In this document: positions 10,149 to 29,440 of the stretch, in pieces
Numbering within the stretch: position 1 is the first letter of the stretch
How the letters are laid out: the number at the start of each line of letters is the position of its first letter
DNA from: Candidatus Eisenbacteria bacterium
Lineage (GTDB): Bacteria > Eisenbacteria > RBG-16-71-46
Assembly: GCA_013140805.1 (NCBI GenBank)
Contig: JABFRW010000041.1
Coordinates: 1-34,816, forward strand
Reading direction: 5' to 3'
Length of the DNA: 34,816 nucleotides
Position numbers and translations under genes: made by a program
The notes under the pieces: model-generated
Told to the model about the DNA's origin: nothing
Seen by the model: only the letters and a program-made list of their open reading frames with translations
The model's database searches: none

Positions 10149-11006
10149 CTAGAACAGCGTCTTGACCTGTTGCACCTCGTCCTCGATGTCCACCAGCAAC
10201 TCCGCCAGCTCCAGCTCGTCGAGCCCGCAGTGGTCGACCGCCGGAACGAGCGTCAGATCCAGGTCCGGCTCGGGGTGCAGGTGGAGACCGATCTTGCGTG
10301 CGATCGCATCGGCGGCCTGCACGCGTAGGGTGAGCCGATCGAGCGCGGCGTCGGTCGGATCGTGATGGCGACGCGCGACCACGCAGATCGGCTCCGGAAT
10401 CCGCCATTCGCGCAGGACCCGTTCGCCGAGCTCGGTGTGCAGCGCGTCGAACAGCTCATCGACCGTCGTGGTGGTGATCGGCGCCTCGCCCTCGCGTTCC
10501 AGCTCGTCGACCGCCTTGAGCACCAGCAGGCAGCCGCTGTCGTGAAGGAGCCCGGCGAGAAACGCCTCGGTCCGCTCTTCCCCCGCTCGCACCGCGAGCT
10601 GACGCGCGGCCACTGCGGTGGCGATCGACTGGTCCCACAGGCGATGCAGCAGCTCGGCACGGCGCGGATCCGACGAGACGAACTGATCGCGTTGAACGCT
10701 CACGGTGACGAGCGAGGTGATCTGCCGCAGGCCGAGGCGTGCGACCGACTCGCTCAGGTCCTGCACCGCACGCAGGCCGCCGAACGATGCGGAGTTCGCG
10801 AGCCGCAGCACCGACGAGGCGAGTGCCGGGTCGTTCTGAATCAGTTCCGCCACTCCGCGCGGATCCGCGGAATTCTCGTTCTGCAGCAGCTCGAGCAGCC
10901 GCTGCGCGATCTCGGGTAGCGGTGGCAATCCGAAACGCCCCGACGTGGTGAGCGAGCGGACGCGCTCGACCAGCGTCAGTGTGTCGGCATCTTTGCGAGC
11001 AGTCAT
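10149..11006 (-). CDS. HDOD domain signalling protein (copy 1)
   Basis: 285-residue single-domain HDOD protein. The HDOD core spans about residues 25-215: LPPLPEIAQRLLELL, then VAELIQNDPALASSVLRLANSASFG, the SVARLGLRQI segment, AGLLHDSGCLLVLK, and VARRHHDPTDAA. HDOD proteins lack the full HD phosphohydrolase site and act as output or scaffold modules in chemotaxis, virulence and surface-motility signalling. There is no fused receiver or GGDEF domain. Its start overlaps the stop of the PilB-like gene (ATGA), so it is co-translated with a pilus/secretion ATPase. That suggests it modulates that ATPase or a shared signalling pathway. Confidence 0.88.
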   Translation of the reverse strand: MTARKDADTLTLVERVRSLTTSGRFGLPPLPEIAQRLLELLQNENSADPRGVAELIQNDPALASSVLRLANSASFGGLRAVQDLSESVARLGLRQITSLVTVSVQRDQFVSSDPRRAELLHRLWDQSIATAVAARQLAVRAGEERTEAFLAGLLHDSGCLLVLKAVDELEREGEAPITTTTVDELFDALHTELGERVLREWRIPEPICVVARRHHDPTDAALDRLTLRVQAADAIARKIGLHLHPEPDLDLTLVPAVDHCGLDELELAELLVDIEDEVQQVKTLF

Positions 11007-12922
11007 CGAGGGCCTCCGGAGCGGATGAGTTCGAGCAGCACAGTGGGGCGTCGAGCGTCCGGGTCGCGCGGCGCATTCGCGACGATTTCGGACAGCGAGG
11101 TGTCCCCCTGCAGCGCCCGCATGACTCCGGACTCCTGAAGGGTCGAGAACACCGGAAGGTGGCGCGCCAGCGAACGCAATTCACGCGACGCGGCGCGACG
11201 CAGCACCGCATCGCGCAGGTCGTCGCTCGGCACCAGCACCTCGTGGATCGCGACGCGACCCTTGTATCCGGTGCCGTTGCAATTGGCGCATCCGCGGCCG
11301 GCCATCAGGCTGAGACCGGCGAGGTCGGCGCGTTCGATGTCGAGATAGCGCAGATCCTCGCGCAACGGCTCGACCGGCGAGGTGCAGTTCGGACACACGC
11401 GCCGCACCAGCCGCTGGGCCACGATCGCACTGATCGTCGAAGACACGAGGTAGGGCTCGACTCCGAGGTCGATCAGGCGGATGAGCGCCCCGACCGCGTC
11501 TTCGGTGTGAAGCGTCGAGAACACCTGATGACCGGTGAGCGCCGCCTCGACCGCCAGTGCGGCGGTTTCGCCGTCTCGGATCTCGCCGACCACGATGATG
11601 TCGGGATCCTGGCGCACGATCGCGCGCAGCGATTGCGCGAAGGTCGGCCCGGTCTTGCTGTTGATCGAGCACTGCGCCACGCCGGGGATCATGTATTCCA
11701 CCGGGTCCTCGGCGCTGATCACCTTGATGCCCGGATCATTCACGTAGTCCACGAACGAGTAGAGCGTCGTGGTCTTGCCGCTGCCGGTCGGGCCGGTCAC
11801 CAGGATGCAGCCCGCGTTCGCGCGCAACACGACGTCGCGCAACATCGAGAGCGGCCGCGCCTCGAAGCCGAGATCCTCGAGCGACACCAGCCCGCGACGG
11901 CGATCGAGCAGTCGCAGCACCGCGGTCTCGCCGAACATGCTGGCGTAGGTCGAAACACGAATGTCGATCTCGCCGCCGTCGAGCTTGACGCGGAAGCGGC
12001 CGTCCTGATGCAGGCGCCGTTCGGCGATGTCGGCGTCGGCCAGCACCTTGATGCGCGAGATGAGCTGCGGCGCGAACGCGGCGGGCAGTCCGGTGAGCGT
12101 CTGCATGACGCCGTCGACTCGCACCCGCACGCGCACCGTGCGCTCGAGCGGTTCGACGTGCAGATCGCTGGCACGCATCTGGATCGCGCGCATCAGCAGA
12201 TCGTCGAGAATTCCGATCGCGCCACGGCCCGATGGATCGTCGCTGGTGGTCTCGCGGATCTCGCGGTACTGGAGCGTGGTCCCGGCCGCGGGCACGTGGC
12301 CGTCGCGCAGGCGCTCCACCGTTTTGAGCGTCGCGACGATCTTCTCTTCGGCGGCGAGACAGGGGCGCACCGGCATGCGATAGATGCGCTCGAGTTCGGC
12401 CACGCACGCGACATCGAGCGGATCGGACATGGCGACCGACAGCTCCTCGTCGGCGACCCGCAGTGGCAGGACCCGATTGCGAACCAGGTACGGCACCGAG
12501 ACGTCGGCGAGCAGCGCCGGATCCACGAGTCCGGCATCGGGCTCGACGATCGGGAGGTCGTGCTTGAGCGAGACCGCGTTCATGAACTGCGCCTCGGTCA
12601 CGAGGCGCCGGCCGACCAGCACCTCACGCTCGGATCCGTCGGGATTCTGCGATCGCGCCAGCTGGTAAGCGGCGCGGCCCTCGGGGTCGAGCGCTCGATT
12701 GGCGACCAGGATCTCGTCGAGCGAGAGCGTCGCCTGATGCACGCGCAACACGCGTTCGTACTCGGAGCGTGCCAGCTGTCCGGTCGAAACCAGGATCTCG
12801 ACCGGCGACTTCGGCTGCTTCAGATGGGCCGAGACGCGGCGCGCGCGCGCCAGCTGGACTTCGCTGACGATGCCCTCGGCCAGCAGCTTCGACTCGAACG
12901 CATCCAGTTCGGCGTTGGGCAC
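11003..12922 (-). CDS. PilB/GspE-type secretion or pilus assembly ATPase
   Basis: 639-residue type II secretion/type IV pilus extension ATPase. The N-terminal 250 residues include T2SSE_N/MshEN-like segments (LVGRRLVTEAQFMNAV, then PYLVRNRVLPLRVADEELSVAMSDPLDV), but the RLG motif of c-di-GMP-binding MshEN domains is not conserved. The catalytic half carries SDLHVEP, Walker A GPTGSGKTTT, VEYMIPGVAQ, Walker B PDIIVVGEIRD with the catalytic Glu, the TGHQVFSTLHTEDA His box, and the tetracysteine zinc site CPNC and CANCNGTGYKG. The chosen start is GTG because GGGAGGGGAG sits just upstream; an upstream ATG would add 20 residues. No pilC, pilT, pilin or gsp gene is in the window, so it is an orphan here. 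PilB and GspE cannot be separated by sequence alone. Confidence 0.9.
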   Translation of the reverse strand: MPNAELDAFESKLLAEGIVSEVQLARARRVSAHLKQPKSPVEILVSTGQLARSEYERVLRVHQATLSLDEILVANRALDPEGRAAYQLARSQNPDGSEREVLVGRRLVTEAQFMNAVSLKHDLPIVEPDAGLVDPALLADVSVPYLVRNRVLPLRVADEELSVAMSDPLDVACVAELERIYRMPVRPCLAAEEKIVATLKTVERLRDGHVPAAGTTLQYREIRETTSDDPSGRGAIGILDDLLMRAIQMRASDLHVEPLERTVRVRVRVDGVMQTLTGLPAAFAPQLISRIKVLADADIAERRLHQDGRFRVKLDGGEIDIRVSTYASMFGETAVLRLLDRRRGLVSLEDLGFEARPLSMLRDVVLRANAGCILVTGPTGSGKTTTLYSFVDYVNDPGIKVISAEDPVEYMIPGVAQCSINSKTGPTFAQSLRAIVRQDPDIIVVGEIRDGETAALAVEAALTGHQVFSTLHTEDAVGALIRLIDLGVEPYLVSSTISAIVAQRLVRRVCPNCTSPVEPLREDLRYLDIERADLAGLSLMAGRGCANCNGTGYKGRVAIHEVLVPSDDLRDAVLRRAASRELRSLARHLPVFSTLQESGVMRALQGDTSLSEIVANAPRDPDARRPTVLLELIRSGGPR

Positions 12923-13023
12923 GACTCCCCTCCCTAGGTGGCGGCCGCAGGGGCTCCGCTCGCCGGCTTCCGTGCTCGGCATGAAACAACTCGAAACCGC
13001 GCAGAGGGCGGCTTCGGGGCAAA

Positions 13024-13050
13024 GTGTCGGCCGGAAGTGCTCTCAATTGA
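13024..13050 (-). promoter_or_regulatory. sigma-28-like promoter, leftward (PilB-HDOD operon)
   Basis: Read on the minus strand, TCAA (13050-13047), exactly 15 nt, then GCCGACAC (13031-13024). This resembles the FliA consensus TAAA-N15-GCCGATAA and the TCAAG-type variant known in some bacteria. Expected start near 13017, giving a leader of about 95 nt before the PilB-like GTG. It mirrors the rightward site at 13061-13087. FliA itself is encoded at 26908-27666. Confidence 0.6.
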
Positions 13051-13060
13051 ACGTGCCCCC

Positions 13061-13087
13061 TCAAACTCCGGGCGCGGCGGCCGACAC
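13061..13087 (+). promoter_or_regulatory. sigma-28-like promoter, rightward (HDOD-sthA-motAB operon)
   Basis: TCAA (13061-13064), 15 nt, then GCCGACAC (13080-13087). The spacing and core are identical to the leftward site. Predicted start near 13094 leaves a leader of about 37 nt, with GAGG before the ATG. Control of stator genes by sigma-28 is the rule in many flagellated bacteria, which supports the call. Confidence 0.65.
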
Positions 13088-13130
13088 TTGGACCTGTCAG
13101 CCGGTCCACCCCGGGTCCCTCGAGGAATTC

Positions 13131-13991
13131 ATGTCGTCCGCCACCCCGCTTCCTGTCCCCATGGATGAGGACTCGCTCGCGTCGGCGTTGCGCGCGCGCC
13201 TGGAGTCCGGCCCCATCGAACTGCCGCTGCTGCCGGAGACGGCCACGGCAGTGCTCGCCGCGTGTCGTCGCGACGAGAGCGGTACCCGCGAAGTCGCGCA
13301 GATCATGCAGCGCGACCCCGCGTTGACCGCGAACGTGCTGCGGATCGCGAACAGCGCGCTCTACTCGCGCGGCGCCGCGATCGTTTCGCTGCCCCACGCG
13401 GTCGGCCGGCTCGGGATCTCGACGGTCGGCGAAATCGCGGCGGCCGCGGTCATGCGCACCACGCTGTTCACCAACGCTCCGGAGGAAGTCTCGATCGAGG
13501 AGCTGTGGCGCCACTCCGCATGCTGCGCGAACTGGGCACGCGAGATCGCGCGCTATCGCCGCCACAGTGTCGAAGGCGCATTCCTGGCCGGACTGCTGCA
13601 CGATGTCGGAAAGCCGGTGCTCCACCATCTGATCGCGCAGGACAACGCGCACGCGCGGCATGCGATTCCGATCGAGGTCACGCGCAGGGTGGTCGAAGAC
13701 ATGCACGGCGAGATCGGCGGCCTGCTGGCCGAGCGCTGGAATCTGGCCGAGTGGATCGCGATCGCGATCGCGCACCATCACCACCCCGAGAACGCGCCTT
13801 CACATCCGTCCGAGGTGCACACGGTGGCACTCGCGAATCACTTCGCGCACGTGGTTTCGGATTCCAGTTTCACGAACATCTCCCATATCGCTCATCCGTC
13901 GGTCGATGTGCTCGACCTCTATGTCGAGGACCTCGAGGCGCTCGCCGAGCGTCGTGACGACGTGCACTCTGCCGTGGAGGCAATGCCGTGA
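13131..13991 (+). CDS. HDOD domain signalling protein (copy 2)
   Basis: 286-residue HDOD protein, a diverged paralogue of copy 1. Order of landmarks: IELPLLPETATAVLAA, QIMQRDPALTANVLRIANSALYS, HAVGRLGISTVGEIA, LWRHSACCANWAREIAR, FLAGLLHDVGKPVLHHL, HGEIGGLLAERWNL, and IAHHHHPENA. It keeps more HD-like residues (HDVGK and the HHHH cluster) than copy 1, so residual metal binding is possible. It is the first gene of the stator operon and overlaps sthA by 4 nt (GTGA). The start ATG is preceded by GAGG. A role in gating motility or late flagellar signalling is inferred from position only. Confidence 0.87.
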   Translation: MSSATPLPVPMDEDSLASALRARLESGPIELPLLPETATAVLAACRRDESGTREVAQIMQRDPALTANVLRIANSALYSRGAAIVSLPHAVGRLGISTVGEIAAAAVMRTTLFTNAPEEVSIEELWRHSACCANWAREIARYRRHSVEGAFLAGLLHDVGKPVLHHLIAQDNAHARHAIPIEVTRRVVEDMHGEIGGLLAERWNLAEWIAIAIAHHHHPENAPSHPSEVHTVALANHFAHVVSDSSFTNISHIAHPSVDVLDLYVEDLEALAERRDDVHSAVEAMP

Positions 13992-15400
13992 TCGACACCT
14001 CAGGACGTTTCGACGTGGTGGTGATCGGCGGCGGCCCCGCAGGTCAGAAGGCGGCGATCCAGACCTCGAAGGCGGGCTTTCGAGCGCTGGTCGTCGAACG
14101 CGGCAGCGCGATCGGCGGCGAGTGCGTTCACCGCGGCACGATTCCGAGCAAGACACTGCGGGAGACCGCCGCTGCCCTCGCGGGCCTGCGGATGCGATCG
14201 ACGGTCGACTTCCGCCGGCCGTTGCCGGCAAACCTGCGCGTCGAACTCATGCTCCAGCGTCAGCGCGAAGTCTGCAACGCGCACGAGCGCTTCATCGGCA
14301 ATCAACTCGAGCGCAACGGCGTCGACTGGCTGCACGGGCTCGCCCGCTTCACCGATCCGCACACGCTCGAAGTGCGACTGCCGGGCGGTTCGCGCCGCAC
14401 GATTCAGGCGAACGCGTTCGTGATCGCGACCGGCTCGCGACCGCGGACGCCCGATGACATTCCGGTCGATCACGATCACGTGCTCGACAGCGATTCCGTG
14501 CTCTCGATGGCGTACCTGCCGACTTCGATGGTGGTGCTGGGCGGCGGGGTGATCGCGAGCGAATTCGCCTCGATCTTCACCGCACTCGACGTGGCCGTCA
14601 CGATCATCGACAAGGCGCCGCGGCCGCTGGCGTTCCTCGAACCCGAGCTCTCGCGTGCATTCGTCGACGACTTCGAGCAGCGCGGTGGCACCTACCTGGG
14701 TGGTCGCTCGATCGCGCGCTTCGAGGTCGATCCGCTGCAGGGCGTCACCGTGACGCTCGATGACGGCCGCGTGGTCAAGGCCCAGAAGGCGTTGTGTGCC
14801 GTGGGGCGCGTGGCCGCGGTGCGCGAACTGCACCTCTCGGCCGCCGGCATCGCGCTGTCGGCGCGCGGACACATCCCCGTCAACGAGTTCTTCCAGACTT
14901 CGGCGCCGCACATCTACGCGGTCGGCGACGTGATCGGACCCCCGGCCCTCGCCGCCACCGCGATGGAGCAGGGCCGCCGCGCCGCACGTCACGCGCTCGG
15001 CCTTCCGCATCCGGCCACCGAGCCGGTGGTTCCAGTGGGCATCTACACCATTCCCGAACTCGCCACCGTCGGCATGACCGAAGCCGAAGCGCTGGCCAAG
15101 TTCGGCGACGTGGTGGTCGGCCGCGCCAAGTTCTCCGAAGTGGCGCGCGGCTGGATCTCGGGCGACACCTCGGGATTCCTCAAGCTGGTGGCCGCTCCCG
15201 ACGGGCGCATCGTGGGTGCGCACATGGCGGGCGAGAACGTGACCGACTACATCCATGTCGCGCAGATGGCGATCCTCGGCGGGCTCGGCGTGGACGCCCT
15301 GATCGACAACATCTTCAACTTCCCGACCATGTCGGAGTCCTACCGCGTCGCCGCGTTGAGCCTGTCCGGACAGCTCGAGCAAAAGCGACTCGCGGCCTAG
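13988..15400 (+). CDS. sthA: soluble pyridine nucleotide transhydrogenase
   Basis: 470-residue two-dinucleotide-binding flavoprotein, the usual SthA length. The FAD motif is VVVIGGGPAGQKAA (residues 10-23), the NAD(P) motif is VVLGGGVIASEFASI, and the second FAD motif is IYAVGDVIG. Instead of the redox-active CxxxxC of dihydrolipoamide dehydrogenase it has GGECVHRGTIPSKTLR: the second Cys is Thr, exactly as in SthA (GTIPSK). The C-terminal dimerisation domain ends with the NFPTMSESYRVAAL signature. SthA exchanges reducing equivalents between NADPH and NAD+ in the cytoplasm without using the membrane potential. The GTG start overlaps the HDOD stop by 4 nt, and motA follows after 21 nt, so it is embedded in a motility operon. 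Confidence 0.92.
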   Translation: MIDTSGRFDVVVIGGGPAGQKAAIQTSKAGFRALVVERGSAIGGECVHRGTIPSKTLRETAAALAGLRMRSTVDFRRPLPANLRVELMLQRQREVCNAHERFIGNQLERNGVDWLHGLARFTDPHTLEVRLPGGSRRTIQANAFVIATGSRPRTPDDIPVDHDHVLDSDSVLSMAYLPTSMVVLGGGVIASEFASIFTALDVAVTIIDKAPRPLAFLEPELSRAFVDDFEQRGGTYLGGRSIARFEVDPLQGVTVTLDDGRVVKAQKALCAVGRVAAVRELHLSAAGIALSARGHIPVNEFFQTSAPHIYAVGDVIGPPALAATAMEQGRRAARHALGLPHPATEPVVPVGIYTIPELATVGMTEAEALAKFGDVVVGRAKFSEVARGWISGDTSGFLKLVAAPDGRIVGAHMAGENVTDYIHVAQMAILGGLGVDALIDNIFNFPTMSESYRVAALSLSGQLEQKRLAA

Positions 15401-15421: not shown

Positions 15422-16282
15422 ATGTTCACCATCATCGGCCTCGTGATCGTCATCGGATCGGTGCTCGGCGGCTTCACGATCGCGGGCGGCAGCATTCCGG
15501 TGCTGTTCCAGGTCTCCGAGATCATCGTGATCTGCGGCACCGCACTCGGCACCGTGTTCATCTCGACGCCGCTCGAAGTGTTGATGCGGATGGTCAACCG
15601 CGTCATCAACCTGTTCTCGCCCTCGCCGTTCAACAAGGGGCTGTACCTCGACGCACTCAAGCTGCTGTTCGAGCTGTTCCAGACCGCGCGACGCGACGGG
15701 CTGGTGGCGATCGAGTCGCACATCGAGAACCCCGACAAGAGTCCGGTTTTCAAGAAGTATCCGGCGATTCTCAAACAGCATCATGCGATGGAGTTCCTCA
15801 GCGACTCGTTGCGACTGGTCCTGATGGGCAGCGTGCCGCCTTACGACCTCGAATCGTTGATGGACGGCGAGATCGAGGTCCATCACGAAGCCGAAACGCG
15901 TCCGGTCTCGGCCCTGCAGAAGGTCGGCGACGCGCTGCCTGGCATCGGCATCGTGGCTGCCGTGCTCGGCATCGTCGTCACGATGGGATCGATCGCGGGA
16001 CCGGTCGAGGAGATCGGTCACCACGTCGCAGCGGCACTCACCGGAACTTTCCTCGGTGTGCTGCTGGCGTACGGATTCCTCGGACCGCTGTCGTCCGGAA
16101 TGGAGGCTGTGAACCAGGCCGAGACGCGCTTCTACAACGTGCTCAAGGCCGGCGTGGTCGCTTTCGCCAAGGGTTTCTCGCCGATCGTGGCGGTCGAATT
16201 CGCGCGCCGCGCGATCTTCGCCGATCAGCGCCCGTCCTTCACCGAGATGGAGCAGTCGGTCAAGGGCAAGGCGAAGAGCTGA
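15422..16282 (+). CDS. motA: flagellar motor stator protein MotA
   Basis: 286-residue MotA-type stator subunit. Two N-terminal membrane helices (IIGLVIVIGSVLGGFTIAG, then SEIIVICGTALGTVFI) are followed by a cytoplasmic loop of about 110 residues with the charged torque-contact region (FQTARRDGLVAIESHIENP). Two further helices carry the conserved prolines: VGDALPGIGIVAAVLGIVVTM and the AALTGTFLGVLLAYG segment. It forms a pentamer around a MotB dimer in the inner membrane and converts ion flow into torque. GGAG lies about 10 nt upstream of the ATG. motB follows after 15 nt. Confidence 0.95.
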   Translation: MFTIIGLVIVIGSVLGGFTIAGGSIPVLFQVSEIIVICGTALGTVFISTPLEVLMRMVNRVINLFSPSPFNKGLYLDALKLLFELFQTARRDGLVAIESHIENPDKSPVFKKYPAILKQHHAMEFLSDSLRLVLMGSVPPYDLESLMDGEIEVHHEAETRPVSALQKVGDALPGIGIVAAVLGIVVTMGSIAGPVEEIGHHVAAALTGTFLGVLLAYGFLGPLSSGMEAVNQAETRFYNVLKAGVVAFAKGFSPIVAVEFARRAIFADQRPSFTEMEQSVKGKAKS

Positions 16283-16297: not shown

Positions 16298-17314
16298 ATG
16301 AACAAGGATCGCGAAATCCCGGTTCGCATCATCATCAAGAAGCGGGGTCATGCGGGCGGACACCATGGTGGTGCCTGGAAGGTGGCGTTCGCGGACTTCA
16401 TGACCGCGATGTTCGCGCTGTTCCTGGTGCTGTGGCTCGTGAATCAGAGTTCGGACGTGAAGTCGGCGATCGCCGGCTACTTCCAGGACCCGCTCGGCCG
16501 GGCCGACGAGTTCGGCAGCTCGATCCTTCCCGGTGAGGGCGCGCAGGCGGCGCAGGTGCGCCCTCTGAGTCCCGCGGACGTCATCGACCTGCGTCGCAAT
16601 CGCCTCACGCGCCTGTCCGAGGAGCTGAAGCACGAACTCGAAGGCGTGCCGGAACTGACCGAGGTGATGAAGAACGTCGAGATCACGCTCACCAACGACG
16701 GCCTTCAGATCGAACTGCTCGAGGACTCGATCGGCGTGTTCTTCGAGACCGGCGTCCCGACGCCGAGCGCGAGGGGTCAGAAGGCGATCGCGGTGCTGGG
16801 CGAGCAGCTCGGCAAGCTGCCGAATCCGCTGCGCATCGAAGGGCACACCGACGCACGGCCGTATTCCAGATCCGGGCCCTACGGCAATTGGGAGTTGAGC
16901 GCCGACCGCGCGAATGCCGCGCGCCGCATCCTGACGTCGAACGGCGTACCGGCCGCTCGCATCGCCGAAGTGCGGGGGCTGGCGGACCGTCAGCCGCGCG
17001 ATCCGGAGCATCCGTTCGCGGCACGCAATCGACGCATCTCGATTCTCGTGATGCTCGGCGAACCGGTGGTGGGCGAAGGAGAACTCACCGATCTCGCGGC
17101 CGGTGACTCCGCCGTCGATGCCCCGGCAACCGATGTGGCAGGCAATCGCGTGGCGGGCGCTTCGCAGGCCGTGACCATTCGGCCTATTCCCGCCGGAGCC
17201 CTGCGGGCCGCGGCCGAACGTGCCGCGGCGAATCGCGAGGCAGCGCGTGCGGCAGCCGAGCGCGCACGGCTCGAAGCTCCGAGCGCACCCGACTCCGGAG
17301 GTCATCTGCCATGA
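16298..17314 (+). CDS. motB: flagellar motor stator protein MotB
   Basis: 338-residue MotB. The short basic, His/Gly-rich cytoplasmic N-terminus is followed by a single membrane helix (AFADFMTAMFALFLVLWLV) containing the essential ion-binding Asp at residue 33. Then come a plug/linker region and a C-terminal OmpA-like peptidoglycan-binding domain with EGHTDARPYS, WELSADRANAARRIL and NRRISILVM. After the OmpA domain there is an unusual Ala/Arg/Glu-rich tail of about 80 residues. Neither the tail nor the pore sequence allows a firm choice between proton and sodium coupling. It overlaps the next gene by 4 nt (ATGA). Confidence 0.95.
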   Translation: MNKDREIPVRIIIKKRGHAGGHHGGAWKVAFADFMTAMFALFLVLWLVNQSSDVKSAIAGYFQDPLGRADEFGSSILPGEGAQAAQVRPLSPADVIDLRRNRLTRLSEELKHELEGVPELTEVMKNVEITLTNDGLQIELLEDSIGVFFETGVPTPSARGQKAIAVLGEQLGKLPNPLRIEGHTDARPYSRSGPYGNWELSADRANAARRILTSNGVPAARIAEVRGLADRQPRDPEHPFAARNRRISILVMLGEPVVGEGELTDLAAGDSAVDAPATDVAGNRVAGASQAVTIRPIPAGALRAAAERAAANREAARAAAERARLEAPSAPDSGGHLP

Positions 17315-18474
17315 GCGAGCGGTGTCGCGTGCTGCTGATTCCCGACGTCGACGAGGACGGCTCGCTGCTGCGCGGGGCACTCGAACGCGAAGAGAACCTC
17401 GAGCTTTCGATCGCAACCGCGTGGACCGATCCGCACGGCGGTGAAGTGCGCTCGCGCGCCGACGTGGTGATCGTGGCGCGCTCGCTGCCGCCCGAGACCG
17501 TGACAGCCTGGCATGCGGCGCGTACCTCGGGATCCTTTACCCCGCAACTGCTGGTCGGCGCCAATCTCGGCGACGCCACTCAGGGCACCGCGTTGCTGCG
17601 TGCCGGTGCCGACGACCTGGTCGCCCTGCCGCTCGACCCCATCGACGTGCTCGCGCGATTGCGCGCTGCGGTGGCGCGCCACCAGCTCGCGCGTGCGCTC
17701 GAGCGCTCGCATCGCGCGACCGAAGCGCTGCAGGAGCGCGAGCGCGATCGACTCGATCGCGTGGTCGATCTGCTGGTGGCGTGGATCGAGCACGTGCGCC
17801 CCGGAGCCACCAATCGCGGTCGTCGTGCGGCCGAACTGTCGGCGCGGCTCGCCGAGCGTTTCGGCATTCCGTTCGGGCTGCGGCGTGACATGCACCTGGC
17901 TGCACGCCTCGCCGAGCTGGGACCGGCGGCGATCGATGCCGCAGATCGCAGGGACGAGGACCCCGGCCACATGTCTCTGGTCGCGCAAAATGTGCTCTCG
18001 CACCTGTCTGAGTTCGCCGACGCGGCGCAATTGCTGTCGGAGACGCAGGAGAACTGGGACGGCACCGGCGGCCCGCAGCACCTGTTGCAGGGGCAGATCC
18101 CGCTCCGGTCGCGCATCGTGCGAGCGACTCACGATCTGCTCGCGATGCTCGAAACCACGAACGATCCCACCGGCACCGACGCACTCGAGCGACTCGCCTC
18201 GCACGCCGGGACCTTCTACGACCCGATGGTCGTCGTGCATCTGCGAGCGCTGATGGGAATGCCGGACGCCGGGACGTTCGTCGCGGACCGGGTGACGTTG
18301 CCGGTCGCTCAGCTCAAGGAAGGCATGGTGCTCGCCGAGGACCTGTGTTCGGACGGCGGCGTGAAGCTGCTGGCCTCGGGTACGCGCTTCACCGGCGACA
18401 TCCTCGAGACCATCCGCCGCCGCCATCGCTCGGAGCCGCTGTCGGGCGCGATGGTGCGAAGGGACTCGCTGTAG
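17311..18474 (+). CDS. receiver-like plus degenerate HD-GYP-like protein
   Basis: 387-residue protein. Residues 1-125 have a response-regulator-like alternation (VLLIPDVDEDG, VVIVARSLPP, LLRAGADDLVALPLDPIDVLARLRAAV) without an obvious phospho-Asp site. A linker helix (AALERSHRATEALQERERDRLDRV region) leads into an HD-GYP-like fold around residues 150-300. Its catalytic residues are lost: the expected LLHDIGK is ARLAELG, the HHE motif is TQE, and GYP is GGP within NWDGTGGP. The later SRIVRATHDLLAM helix retains the shape of the family. A C-terminal tail of about 70 residues (LKEGMVLAEDLCSDGGVKLLASG) resembles segments found in other HD-GYP and HDOD regulators. It probably acts as a non-enzymatic binding or scaffold protein tied to the stator. 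Last gene of the operon. Confidence 0.75.
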   Translation: MSERCRVLLIPDVDEDGSLLRGALEREENLELSIATAWTDPHGGEVRSRADVVIVARSLPPETVTAWHAARTSGSFTPQLLVGANLGDATQGTALLRAGADDLVALPLDPIDVLARLRAAVARHQLARALERSHRATEALQERERDRLDRVVDLLVAWIEHVRPGATNRGRRAAELSARLAERFGIPFGLRRDMHLAARLAELGPAAIDAADRRDEDPGHMSLVAQNVLSHLSEFADAAQLLSETQENWDGTGGPQHLLQGQIPLRSRIVRATHDLLAMLETTNDPTGTDALERLASHAGTFYDPMVVVHLRALMGMPDAGTFVADRVTLPVAQLKEGMVLAEDLCSDGGVKLLASGTRFTGDILETIRRRHRSEPLSGAMVRRDSL

Positions 18475-18802: not shown

Positions 18803-20104
18803 ATGCCTTCCTACTCGCTTTCGCACCTCGCCGATCGGGTGCTGCTGCGCGATCTCGCCTCGCTCGTCGCCACCGATCGCGTCACGACTGCCGCACTCCT
18901 CGCTCATCTCGCCGAAGTCGAGGTGCGCCAGCTCTACCGGCCCGCGGCGTACTCCTCGATGCTCGCCTACTGTGTGGGTGAGCTGCGGCTGTCCGAGTCC
19001 GCGGCGCTGAGACGCATCCGCGCGGCTCGCATCGCCCGCAAGTTCCCGGTGCTGTTCCCGGCCATCGCCGATGGACGGATCCATCTCACCACCGTGCTGC
19101 TGCTCGCGACCCACCTGACTCCTGAGTCGGTGGAAGAACTCGTCGCGGTCACCACCCATAAGACCAGGGAAGAAGTGGAGCAGCTGCTGGCGGAGCGCTT
19201 CCCGCAGCCCGATCTCCCGACGAGCTTGCAGGCCATGGGGTTGCCGGCTCCGCCCATGGCGAGAGTCGCGAACGAACACACTGCCGAGGTGGCGCTGGAG
19301 CTACTTCAAAATGAAACACTTCTGGCGGCGCCAGTGGCTGCAGCCCCGGTTGGACGAGCGAGGGTCGCTCCGCTCTCCGCCGACCGCTATGCGCTGCAGG
19401 TCACACTCGCGAAGGAAACGCATGACCAGCTGCGCTACGCCCAGGCGCTGCTGAACCATGCGGTTCCCTCGGGCGACCTGGCACAGGTGCTCGACCGGGC
19501 GCTCAAGGCGCTGGTGCGTCAGCTCGAACAGCGCAAGTTCGGAGCCGCCGCGCGCACCTGTCCTCGACGCGGCAAGCCGCAGGGTCGCTACGTGCCCGCA
19601 CCGGTGCGGAAGACGGTATGGCTGCGCGATGGCGGCCACTGCACGTTCGTAGGTGAGAACGGGCGGCGCTGCGAGGAGCGAGCGCGCCTGGAATTCGATC
19701 ACATCGAGCCGGTCGCACGAGGAGGGACTACCACCGCGGCGAACCTGCGGCTGCGCTGCCGGGCGCACAATCAGTACGAGGCCGAGCAGCTGTACGGAGT
19801 GGCATTCATGCGCGACAAGCGGGAGAAGTCGCAGCGCGGCGCTGTGAGAGCAAAGCCCGCAGCGAGTGCGACTGCAGGGCCGCGTGCGACCGCGGAGCCG
19901 AACACAGCCGCGCCCACTCCCGACAACGACGTGATCCCGTGGCTGCGGCGACTGGGGTTTCGCGCGGAAGAGGCGCGTCGCGGGGCGGCGTGCTGCGACG
20001 CCATCCCCGAGGCGTCGCTCGAGGAGCGAGTTCGGCGGGCGCTGACTCATCTCGCGCCGAGCTGCCGGCGTGACGGCCCTCAGGCGACGAGAAGTCCGGC
20101 GTGA
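18803..20104 (+). CDS. HNH endonuclease-containing protein
   Basis: 433-residue protein. The N-terminal two-thirds (1-260) is helical: LADRVLLRDLASLVATDR, ELRLSESAALRRIRAARIARKFP, then a paired-helix segment ETHDQLRYAQALLNHAVPSGD. The HNH nuclease core follows: RKTVWLRDGGHCTFVG, LEFDHIEPVARGGTTTAANLRLRCRAHNQYEAE, with the DH, N and H residues intact. The tail IPWLRRLGFRAEEARRGA resembles RuvA C-terminal helices. This architecture belongs to a multicopy HNH family of unknown role found in high-GC environmental bacteria. Start ATG chosen by homology-like onset; only a weak ribosome binding site is seen. It converges on flgK with a 14-nt gap, in the place where flgL would be expected. Confidence 0.8.
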   Translation: MPSYSLSHLADRVLLRDLASLVATDRVTTAALLAHLAEVEVRQLYRPAAYSSMLAYCVGELRLSESAALRRIRAARIARKFPVLFPAIADGRIHLTTVLLLATHLTPESVEELVAVTTHKTREEVEQLLAERFPQPDLPTSLQAMGLPAPPMARVANEHTAEVALELLQNETLLAAPVAAAPVGRARVAPLSADRYALQVTLAKETHDQLRYAQALLNHAVPSGDLAQVLDRALKALVRQLEQRKFGAAARTCPRRGKPQGRYVPAPVRKTVWLRDGGHCTFVGENGRRCEERARLEFDHIEPVARGGTTTAANLRLRCRAHNQYEAEQLYGVAFMRDKREKSQRGAVRAKPAASATAGPRATAEPNTAAPTPDNDVIPWLRRLGFRAEEARRGAACCDAIPEASLEERVRRALTHLAPSCRRDGPQATRSPA

Positions 20105-26368: not shown

Positions 26369-26908
26369 TCAAGCAATCCATGTGCCTTGAGTGCCTCGCG
26401 CGTCTCGGGTCGCATTGGCTACGACTTGCGCGCGCGTGAGCCGTGGCTCGGGTCGGCGAGCTCCGGTGTGTGCCGGAACTTTGTTCCGGTTTTGCGGAGC
26501 ACTCTTCCGCTTGCGAGGTCGCTCGAGCGTCTGCGTCCACAGCACCATGCGCACGGCGTCCTGAGCCAGCCGCGTGCGGCGCGCGATCGAGGCGACCGAG
26601 TGTCCGTCGCGTACCAGGCGCAGCACACGGTCGCGCGAGACCGTCGAACGAGCCGGTCCGAGCGCGTGAGTGCGACGAATCGATGCGATCAGAGCGAACA
26701 CCAGCACCGCGAGAAGTGCGGCGGCCACCGACGGTGCGATCGCCAGCAGGTCGGCGCCGTTGAGCGACACCGACGCGCCGTGCCAGCGCAGGAATCGCCA
26801 CATGGCCGAAGCCGAGTAGAGCGCCGCCATGACGTGACCGCTCACCAGCCCCGCCGCTGCGAAGATCACCACCGTGCCCGCGAGTGCCGCCAGTAATTGT
26901 CGGTTCAT
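26369..26908 (-). CDS. membrane-anchored protein with HTH-like tail (DUF6115-like)
   Basis: 179-residue protein. Two membrane segments (residues 7-30, AALAGTVVIFAAAGLVSG; and about 52-75, LLAIAPSVAAALLAVLVFALIAS) are followed by a cytoplasmic helix-turn-helix-like stretch, STVSRDRVLRLVRDGHSVASIARRTRLAQDAVRMVLW by position (around residues 88-124). The tail of about 50 residues is rich in Arg and Lys. Small membrane proteins with a sigma-factor-like HTH are found directly after fliA in other diderm flagellar operons (DUF6115). The ATG shares one base with the fliA stop (TGATG), so it is coupled to sigma-28 translation. Its function is not known. Confidence 0.7.
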   Translation of the reverse strand: MNRQLLAALAGTVVIFAAAGLVSGHVMAALYSASAMWRFLRWHGASVSLNGADLLAIAPSVAAALLAVLVFALIASIRRTHALGPARSTVSRDRVLRLVRDGHSVASIARRTRLAQDAVRMVLWTQTLERPRKRKSAPQNRNKVPAHTGARRPEPRLTRAQVVANATRDARGTQGTWIA

Positions 26909-27666
26909 CACGCCGCCTCCCGGATTTCGATTTCCGAGCGCAGCCGCAGCAACGCTCGGGTGCGGATCTGAGAGACCCGCGACTCGGTGATGTGAAGCAC
27001 CGCGCCGATCTCGCGGTGACTCAACCCTTCGTAGTACGACAGCGAGAGCACCAGGCGATCGCGCTCGCTCAAAGAATCGAAGGCCTCGCGCAGGCACGTC
27101 AGCGTTTCGGCGTGCTCGATGCGAGCACCCGGCAGCTCGTTGCGCTCGTCCGCCAGTGTTTCCGACAACGGCGCGCGATTGCCGGCCTCATTGACCGGCG
27201 AGTCGAACGCGAGCATCGGCGCTCCCGGCAAATTGCGACTCCACTTCCAGAACATGTCCAGGTCCACTTCGAGCGCATCCGCCATCTCCTGCGGGTGAGG
27301 TGCCCGGCCGAGCTTCTGTTCGAGCCTGGCGTGCGTGCGCGACAGCAGCGATTGACGCTCGCGCACCGTGCGGGGCACCCAGTCCTGCGCGCGCAGTTCG
27401 TCGACGATCGAGCCGCGGATGCGCGGCATCGCGTAGGTGCTGAATGCCAGTCCCCGAGCGGGTTCGAAGCCTTCGAGCGCCTGGACCAGCCCAACCGTGC
27501 CGGCGCTCAACAGATCGCCGAGTTCGATGTGGCGCGGACTGCGGCGCACGTATTCGTGCGCGGCGCGGTGAACCAGCCCCAGGTAGTGCGCGAGCAGGGC
27601 GCTGCGCGCCGTGAGGTCGTTGTTCCCGCGATAGCGCTGCCACAGCGCGTCGGTGATCGGATTCAT
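26908..27666 (-). CDS. fliA: flagellar sigma factor sigma-28 (FliA)
   Basis: 252-residue FliA/WhiG-type sigma. Region 2: LVHRAAHEYVRRSPRHIELGDLLSAGTVGLVQALEGFEP by position, then FSTYAMPRIRGSIVDELRAQDWVPR, the -10 recognition helix with the family's RIRG and DELR wording. Region 3: LSRTHARLEQKLGRAPHPQEMADAL. Region 4: LSERDRLVLSLSYYEGLSHREIGAVLHITESRVSQIRTRAL by position, the -35 reader. It directs RNA polymerase to late flagellar and stator promoters. ATGA overlap with flhG. No flgM is present in the window. Two matching promoter sites occur at 13024-13087. Confidence 0.95.
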   Translation of the reverse strand: MNPITDALWQRYRGNNDLTARSALLAHYLGLVHRAAHEYVRRSPRHIELGDLLSAGTVGLVQALEGFEPARGLAFSTYAMPRIRGSIVDELRAQDWVPRTVRERQSLLSRTHARLEQKLGRAPHPQEMADALEVDLDMFWKWSRNLPGAPMLAFDSPVNEAGNRAPLSETLADERNELPGARIEHAETLTCLREAFDSLSERDRLVLSLSYYEGLSHREIGAVLHITESRVSQIRTRALLRLRSEIEIREAA

Positions 27667-28481
27667 CGCGACTCTCCCACCGGGGCCGTGAGACCGAGCC
27701 GGGTGGCGAGCGTTTGGGTCGCGATCGCAAGTCCGGGTGGTGCTTCGGCGAGCAGCGCGCCGGGCCGGCGCACCGCACGTCCGAGTGCCGCATGCTCGTG
27801 CACCGCACCGAGCCAGGTGATCGGGTGGCCGAGGAAGCGGCCGACCGCGAGCTCGAGGCGCGCGAACGAATCGCGCGCTTCGTCGTCGTGAGCGACTCGA
27901 TTGACCAGCACGTCGACCGGGAGCCCGGGAAGCTCTCGCACGATCAGCTTGAGCACCACGTAGGCATCGCACAGCGCGGCCGGTTCCGGGATCAGCACCA
28001 GCACGACGCGGTCGGCTCTCACCGCGGCGGCGCGCAACACGTCGTCGGGGCCCGGACCTGCGTCGACCAGCGAGACATCGAACGCGTCGTGAAGGTGCGA
28101 CATGCGCAGCTCGTGCCGCGCACGATCCACCGCCGAGAGCCCGCGCAATGCTTCGGCTCCGCCGGCTCCCGGCAGCAACCACATGTGATCGCGAACCCGC
28201 GTGAGCATCTCCCCCGGCCGCCGCTCGGCAGTCAGGACCGCTTCGAGCGTCACCGGCGTGCGTGCGCCGAGCAGCAGGTGAAGGTGCCCGAACGCATGCC
28301 CCGCGTCCGACACCAGCGTGCGGAGCCCGCGCGCCGCGAGTGTCGCGCCCATCAGTCCGATGAGCGCCGACTGGCCGACGCCACCCTTCCCGCTCGCGAA
28401 CACCACCGTGCGTCCCTGTCGGGTCGCGGTTTCGCGCGCGCCGCCGGACGGCGTTCCGTATTCGACCGCTGCGCGCGTCAC
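27663..28481 (-). CDS. flhG: FlhG/MinD-like ATPase with altered P-loop
   Basis: 272-residue ParA/MinD family protein in the flhF-flhG-fliA position, where FlhG controls flagellar number with FlhF. The deviant Walker A is SGKGGVGQSAL (residues 30-40): the signature Lys of KGG is kept, but the canonical P-loop Lys (KGGVGKT/S) is Gln at residue 37. The usual DADLGxxN becomes DAGHAFGH (residues 59-66), removing the second Asp and the Asn. The Walker B strand keeps its Asp (VSLVDAGPGPDD). The C-terminal part keeps the VLVLIPEPAALCDAYVVLKLI and DVLVNRV segments of FlhG. Likely reduced or absent ATPase activity. Overlaps flhF and fliA by 4 nt each. Confidence 0.88.
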   Translation of the reverse strand: MTRAAVEYGTPSGGARETATRQGRTVVFASGKGGVGQSALIGLMGATLAARGLRTLVSDAGHAFGHLHLLLGARTPVTLEAVLTAERRPGEMLTRVRDHMWLLPGAGGAEALRGLSAVDRARHELRMSHLHDAFDVSLVDAGPGPDDVLRAAAVRADRVVLVLIPEPAALCDAYVVLKLIVRELPGLPVDVLVNRVAHDDEARDSFARLELAVGRFLGHPITWLGAVHEHAALGRAVRRPGALLAEAPPGLAIATQTLATRLGLTAPVGESR

Positions 28482-29440
28482 GACACCAGCTCCAGTCTCG
28501 CCGCCGAAGCCGAACGATCTCCGCTCGGCGCGGTCGCGCCGCGCGGGGATCGCGCGTCGCGCATCGCCCCTTCGAGCCCCATTGCACGCAGATCCGAAGG
28601 GATCTCCTGCCCATCTCCGTACCAGCGGACCGGCAGCGCCAGCGATTCGGCCAGCTCGAACGCGATCCGATCGTTCGGATGCTCATCGAGCTTGGTCGGC
28701 AACACGTGCGTTGCGCCCAGGTCGCGCACCCGTTCGAGCGCCACCGCCGCCGCCGCGCGCGAAAGGCCCGCGGGAATCACGGCGTGCGTCTCGAGTGGAT
28801 ACAGCACGTGCAACAAGCCGCGCAGCGTGTCGTGATCCTCGCGCCGGCGCGGTCCGCGTCCCGGCGTGTCGACCAGCACCACATCGCAACGGCGCAGGTG
28901 CTTGAGCGCGCGCGGAACGTCCTCCGCGCGATGCGCGAACTCGACCGGCGTGCGCGCCAGCGCGCCCAGCGAGCGCAGCTCCTCGACCGCGCCCGCCCGG
29001 AAGGTGTCGAGCCCGAGCACGCCGACCACCAGTCCGCCCAGCACGTCCGGGTGACTCGCCAGCTTGGCGAGCGTGGTGGTCTTGCCGCCACCGGTCGGGC
29101 CGACCAGCGCGATGACGGGCGGGAACTCGTCGCGACGCGCGGCGAGCGCGAGCGGTGACAGCGTCCGCGCCGCGAGTGACGCGCGTGCGATGTGCGAGAG
29201 CCGGGGCGAGTCGGCCGTGCGTGACTCGCCGGCGCCCGGCGTGACCGCGCGCGGCGGGCCGATGCGCTTCACTCCGGCGCGCGGTGCGAACGCATGGGGA
29301 TCGCCCGGTCGCACGGCAGTCAGCGCGAGTTCGCGCCCTTCGCGCCCGACCGACAGCACGATGGCGTCAGGCCCCAGTGCTGCGCGCGCGCGCGCGAGCA
29401 GGGTGTGGAGTTCGGGTCCGGTAAAGGTCTCAGGCGGCAC
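28478..29440 (-). CDS. flhF: flagellar SRP-like GTPase FlhF
   Basis: 320-residue SRP-family GTPase that sets flagellar position. A shortened N-terminal B domain (residues 1-60, ELHTLLARARAALGPDAIVLS) is followed by the NG domain. G1 is ALVGPTGGGKTTTLAKLA, then GVLGLDTFRAGAVEELRSLG, G3 is VVLVDTPGRG, the HAVIPAGLSR segment follows, and G4 is LPTKLDE. The usual long acidic linker is short. GTG start chosen because GGGAG lies 7 nt upstream; an ATG 21 nt earlier is possible. Overlaps flhA by 11 nt. Confidence 0.92.
   Translation of the reverse strand: MPPETFTGPELHTLLARARAALGPDAIVLSVGREGRELALTAVRPGDPHAFAPRAGVKRIGPPRAVTPGAGESRTADSPRLSHIARASLAARTLSPLALAARRDEFPPVIALVGPTGGGKTTTLAKLASHPDVLGGLVVGVLGLDTFRAGAVEELRSLGALARTPVEFAHRAEDVPRALKHLRRCDVVLVDTPGRGPRRREDHDTLRGLLHVLYPLETHAVIPAGLSRAAAAVALERVRDLGATHVLPTKLDEHPNDRIAFELAESLALPVRWYGDGQEIPSDLRAMGLEGAMRDARSPRGATAPSGDRSASAARLELVS

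Follow-up and report, generated by a model that had tools for sequence, protein, structure and literature searches.

What drives the two gene runs, a stator operon and a pilus-type ATPase operon, that diverge from one short gap in a Candidatus Eisenbacteria genome, and what accounts for the inverted repeat that lies between them? The locus falls within a 34,816-nucleotide stretch of DNA, all of which was analysed (the window), from a draft genome of 3.8 Mb in 215 contigs (G000). Given GTG 12922 as the start of pilB and ATG 13131 as that of HDOD1, the gap extends over 208 bp (12923-13130). From sequence comparison we consider it very probable (about 0.9) that it contains two independent, outward-facing sigma-28 promoters, read by FliA, that drive both operons.

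The divergent gap and its flanking operons

The features on which the argument turns are as follows.

10149-11006, minus strand: HDOD2 (HDOD, 155.2 bits), with a 4-bp overlap with the pilB stop
11003-12922, minus strand: PilB/GspE-type ATPase with an MshEN domain (T2SSE, 384.8 bits; MshEN, 61.9 bits)
13022-13050, minus strand: predicted leftward sigma-28-type promoter, TCAA-N15-GCCGACACTT, exact motif, upstream of the pilB-HDOD2 operon
13061-13089, plus strand: predicted rightward sigma-28-type promoter, TCAA-N15-GCCGACACTT, exact motif, upstream of HDOD1-sthA-motA-motB-HD-GYP
13131-13991, plus strand: HDOD1, which opens the rightward operon (HDOD, 158.6 bits, scored on the longer frame 12870-13991)
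13988-15400, plus strand: sthA, Si-specific NAD(P)+ transhydrogenase (NF003585, 502.5 bits, cut-off 465)
15422-16282, plus strand: motA (MotA_N, 86.2 bits)
16298-17314, plus strand: motB (MotB_plug and OmpA domains)
17311-18474, plus strand: HD-GYP-like protein (HD_5, 56.2 bits), end of the rightward gene run
26908-27654, minus strand: fliA, sigma-28 (TIGR02479, 209.8 bits, cut-off 189.6; start approximate)

The five rightward genes, HDOD1, sthA, motA, motB and the HD-GYP-like gene, overlap or are closely spaced, with a GAGG 5 nt ahead of the HDOD1 ATG. MotA shares 64-72% identity with its counterparts in flagellated relatives of the family, and the HD-GYP-like protein scores 113 bits against the NosR-like c-di-GMP phosphodiesterase family, under that family's cut-off, its metal-binding HD/HH residues looking degenerate by eye. 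On the left the start of pilB was taken at GTG 12922, which is preceded by GGGAGGGGAG. Its product has a canonical Walker A sequence (GPTGSGKTTT) and is named a PilB/GspE-type ATPase only, since it falls under the equivalog cut-offs for both PilB (TIGR02538, 475.6 bits vs 675.65) and GspE (TIGR02533, 489.3 bits vs 630.25). A gene 46% identical to HDOD2 is divergent from motA in the relative G008.

A reading of the window made from the sequence alone had placed fliA within it, and the assignment holds, above the FliA/WhiG subfamily cut-off. The gene is the C-terminal part of a long frame (26908-28686, minus strand) and belongs to a flagellar cluster with flgK, flgN, flgI, flgH, flgG and flgF, past which the frames follow the order expected for flhG, flhF, flhA, flhB, fliR and fliP (named by position, not by HMM). 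Between the motAB operon and flgK lies an HNH-domain gene (18803-20104, plus strand) with a weak, sub-cut-off IscB-like match.

The same sequence-only reading had described outward-facing TCAA-N15 sites on both strands of the gap, 10 bp apart and forming a perfect 12-bp repeat, and we find them exactly so. On the minus strand the -35 element TCAA (13050-13047) is separated by a 15-nt spacer from the -10 element GCCGACACTT (13031-13022), and on the plus strand TCAA (13061-13064) and GCCGACACTT (13080-13089) flank a spacer of the same length (13065-13079). The -35 elements are separated by 13051-13060, and the arms of the repeat, 13022-13033 and 13078-13089, can be extended to 17 nt at 88%. A promoter sequence repeated on the opposite strand yields such an inverted repeat by itself, and nothing more is needed to account for it. 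Elements of the TAAA and GCCGATAA type are thus found on both strands, as TCAA and GCCGACACTT; a point against the sigma-28 reading is that the -10 sequence here, GCCGACAC, differs from the classical GCCGATAA.

In a search of the whole window no further place matches the motif at 0, 1 or 2 mismatches, and a limit of 3 mismatches yields 7 matches vs 2.25 expected. A weight matrix built from the relatives only ranks the plus-strand site first and the minus-strand site second in the 34.8-kb window; the minus-strand score of 15.4 is reached by a few of 60 simulated windows, so that support for this site rests also on the exact match and its context. Directly after the expected leftward start, in the ~90-nt leader of pilB, there is a terminator-like stem-loop (13016-12992, minus strand), possibly an attenuator or a product of chance.

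Motif sites in the genome and in flagellated relatives

Genome-wide counts were obtained by pattern searches. There are three exact copies of the 14-base motif, the two window sites and C75:8823, vs an estimated ~0.01 expected from base composition, and this count, together with the mismatch scan of the window, places the pair far beyond chance. That the motif should recur at late flagellar genes, as expected of sigma-28 promoters, is borne out, with an exact copy before a FlgM-like gene and recognisable sites before flgL (C75:5988, two mismatches) and fliC (TCAA-N15-TCCGACTCTA), which with the motAB operon make up the late flagellar genes with sites in this genome. On contig C75 the relatives-only matrix gives its three highest ranks to the FlgM-like, flgL and fliC sites, in that order. 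The exact C75 copy follows closely on fliC-flbT-flaF, 67 nt ahead of a 127-aa gene (C75:8918-9301) that matches a single family, FlgM, and does so weakly; because it stays under the family cut-offs (PF04316, 14 bits vs 25; TIGR03824, 15 bits vs 40.75) we call it FlgM-like only, on context. FlbT and FlaF, familiar mainly from Alphaproteobacteria, are encoded at L010 8034-8805, after fliC and before the FlgM-like gene.

Only two sites genome-wide have one mismatch, C19:43570, 36 nt ahead of an HDOD gene, and C189:4048, 61 nt ahead of a response-regulator-HDOD gene, while those with two mismatches include, besides flgL, sites at a NosP gene (C172; NF041558, 472.7 bits, cut-off 450) and at an EAL-HDOD gene (C173). 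With HDOD1 as query, all four of the HDOD loci found sit behind such a site, as does the EAL-HDOD gene; for HDOD2 this is indirect, as the second gene of the pilB operon, and for the other HDOD loci direct. A relaxed pattern, TCAA-N16-CCGANNCT, gives 21 matches vs 13 for reversed controls, the extra ones being mostly intragenic. Further matches lie near a carbonic anhydrase (C195) and near a protein of no assigned function (C202), and those near LptC/LptB (C20) and PhoH (C55) were set aside as chance.

The family includes eight flagellated genomes with a close MotA, the present one among them. In all seven relatives TCAA-N15-[ACGT]CCGA[TG]ACT precedes motA, in most of them 82-87 nt from its start, with elements of the form TCAA(G) at -35 and nCCGATACT at -10, so that the motA-upstream sites are kept in the flagellated genomes, as had been anticipated for functional promoters. 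The site is weak in G004 (TTCA at -35), and in G008 a good one is at -536, separated from motA by a small open frame. A second, opposed site is present at the motA locus of three relatives. In G010 it is 50 bp from the first, as against 10 in the present genome, and points to a CheY-like gene together with other frames resembling chemotaxis genes; in G004 it points to a response-regulator-like gene; and in G008 a weaker version (16-nt spacer, poorer -10) points to the HDOD2 homolog. Divergent sites of apparent sigma-28 type thus recur at the mot operon, and the left-hand genes differ among genomes. In G013, G018 and G019 motA is preceded by a gene whose product starts as EAL-HDOD proteins do (FxARQPIFD), and the G016 contig begins inside a similar EAL-HDOD-like frame ahead of motA.

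In order to relate the motif to flagella, TCAA-N16-CCGAYACT was searched in all 47 genomes of the class, 20 of them members of the family. Of the matches in the family, 30 fall in the eight flagellated members and 2 in the 12 members that lack MotA, both of these in G011 (79% complete), where one is ahead of a response-regulator-HDOD-type gene; the other 11 have none, and a reversed-pattern control gives 1 match in the family. Presence in 8/8 flagellated genomes vs 1/12 without MotA corresponds to a Fisher p of ~7e-5, a value that ignores kinship between genomes that are not independent. The pattern was modelled on the relatives' motA sites, which account for 7 of the 26 matches outside the present genome. 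Others are at genes for flagellin (G004), flgL (G010), an MshEN protein (G004), a FIST-like protein (G016) and response-regulator-HDOD-type proteins (G016, G018), targets named from their N-termini or from neighbouring HDOD matches, and some of the remaining matches, at genes with no flagellar link, may be chance. Two similar genes (~185-230 aa) with an apparent membrane segment, in G013 (C107, L120) and G018 (C22, L113), each lie directly behind a sigma-28-like site.

Among 27 distinct flgL/fliC upstream regions, N15 sites over threshold occur in 17, vs 5 of 1872 random stretches, and if either N15 or N16 is accepted the count is 23/27 vs 72/1849. The spacing is fixed at about 15 nt, with 17 regions at N15, 6 at N16 and 0-1 at N12-N14, N17 and N18.

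Choice of sigma factor and alternative readings of the repeat

Two proteins of the genome exceed the FliA/WhiG cut-off, the FliA of the window and one on contig C108 (247.6 bits), and the promoters could be real and yet be read by the latter. In many related genomes, indeed, a C108-type sigma gene has a relative of HDOD1 close by. However, this type of sigma factor occurs in every one of the 20 family members, regardless of flagella, whereas the motif is confined to the flagellated ones and G011, and the sites precede flagellin, flgL and motA, making the C108 protein an unlikely reader. The flagellar-cluster type of FliA is found in the flagellated genomes, plus G025 and G036 (both with MotA), and on this comparison it is the flagellar-cluster FliA that the motif tracks, not the universal C108-type FliA/WhiG-like factor. 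Separately, several members of the class without MotA have an HDOD gene no more than about 150 bp from the universal sigma gene (e.g. G027 C38, G030 C295, G035 C118, G023 C13, G033 C73, G039 C143), possibly a sigma-HDOD module with no flagellar connection in those genomes.

The perfect 12-bp arms, symmetric about the gap, would also suit an operator at which a dimeric or looping transcription factor controls both operons from promoters located elsewhere. We regard this as very unlikely: the same sequence stands singly, with no second arm, ahead of the FlgM-like gene and the HDOD paralogs, what is conserved are TCAA and CCGA.ACT blocks a constant distance apart, the layout of a bipartite promoter, the opposed sites of G010 are not 10 bp apart, and a scan of the gap found no sigma-70-like promoter. 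Least credible of all is an RNA hairpin or bidirectional terminator. Although the segment, as RNA, folds better than its shuffles (z -2.85), the flanking genes diverge, so that neither mRNA would hold both arms; moreover, the arms are 44 nt apart, the terminator scan found none there (its single match being the separate stem in the pilB leader) and related sites occur without a second arm. The original suspicion that no hairpin role explains the repeat well is therefore one that we share.

Two FliA-dependent promoters are, in turn, supported by the late-gene sites, the conserved motA sites and the co-occurrence with flagellar FliA, and genome comparison shows the motif to be real, regularly spaced, conserved and associated with FliA and flagella. 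FliA, whose gene lies 14 kb from the gap within the same flagellar cluster, would direct RNA polymerase to TCAA-N15-GCCGACACTT on each strand, the complex binding each site separately and transcribing outward to produce HDOD1-sthA-motAB-HD-GYP on the right and pilB-HDOD2 on the left, from start positions that we infer. Both operons would then be late, silent up to hook completion and export of the FlgM-like anti-sigma factor. The exact promoter copy ahead of the FlgM-like gene itself suggests the familiar checkpoint and its feedback.

A predicted extended late regulon and the possible control of swimming

In E. coli and Salmonella sigma-28 (FliA) promoters have the form TAAA-N15-GCCGATAA and serve motAB, flagellin, hook-associated genes and flgM. 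The sites described here share the bipartite form, the spacing and the late flagellar targets, and differ in their elements (TCAA at -35, GCCGAYACT at -10), in the outward-facing arrangement of two promoters in one gap and in targets that reach HDOD, NosP, sthA and PilB/GspE-type genes. The proposal of a broader late regulon than usual thus gains ground from sites at further HDOD genes, at the NosP gene and at an MshEN protein. The same switch appears, from the positions of its predicted sites, also to run a large set of signalling and pilus-type ATPase genes; that the HDOD, PilB/GspE-type and NosP proteins signal via c-di-GMP or NO is a guess.

Wide FliA regulons have precedents. In Bdellovibrio bacteriovorus a sigma-28-like sequence, TTAAG-N16-CCGATA, precedes many non-flagellar genes and FliA has been proposed as a wider regulator (PMC3627812); there too the regulon reaches far past flagella, but it serves the attack-phase programme of a predator and includes chemotaxis proteins, whereas the additional genes here are mainly HDOD, MshEN and NO-sensing ones. 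In Pseudomonas putida the c-di-GMP phosphodiesterase gene bifA is under partial FliA control (PMC5300878), likewise a c-di-GMP-related gene under sigma-28, in that case a single gene with neither a divergent pair nor an HDOD set. A search of the open-access literature (HDOD with FliA, NosP with HDOD, MshEN) returned no title or abstract describing the present regulon. What is new is therefore the gene set and the lineage, sigma-28 promoters and wide FliA regulons being known already, and the predicted regulon is unusual in its content of HDOD, NO-sensing and MshEN proteins.

Profile searches of the present draft genome detected neither CheW nor any MCP over cut-off, and the flagellated drafts G004 and G008 also lack a CheW match; CheW is present in flagellated G010, G013, G016, G018 and G019. 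Chemotaxis may have been lost in the three CheW-less flagellated genomes, all of them drafts. Among the genomes searched it is only these three that have close relatives of a second GspE/PilB-like MshEN protein (G000:C79:1535-2626, minus strand, L142; counterparts G008 C126, L143, and G004 C170, L144), which is 41-44% identical to the G008 and G004 proteins and ~25% to others. All three have lost the Walker A lysine (GSGTSTT, GSGCSTT, GSGCSTT) and keep sequence resembling the MshEN motif, and a sigma-28-like site lies upstream of the gene in each genome, weak in the present one.

A joint reading, speculative and in our judgement probably not correct as a whole, would have one branch of the family keep the flagellum and lose CheA/CheW, with FliA driving instead a motor-control module of HDOD, NosP (NO-sensing) and MshEN proteins, one MshEN protein being a pseudo-ATPase. 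The slot that fires a chemotaxis operon in CheW-bearing G010 would here fire HDOD or pilB-HDOD, and it would be the binding of second messengers, in place of CheY, that steers or brakes swimming. With three cases in draft genomes, replacement of chemotaxis is a lead.

For a lineage known here only from draft genomes, the comparison provides a usable sigma-28 consensus, TCAA(G)-N14/15-nCCGAYACT, from which late-gene sets can be read in sequence, and it links HDOD proteins to late flagellar expression. If the joint reading is true, these genomes show how a flagellated cell might be controlled without CheA/CheW.
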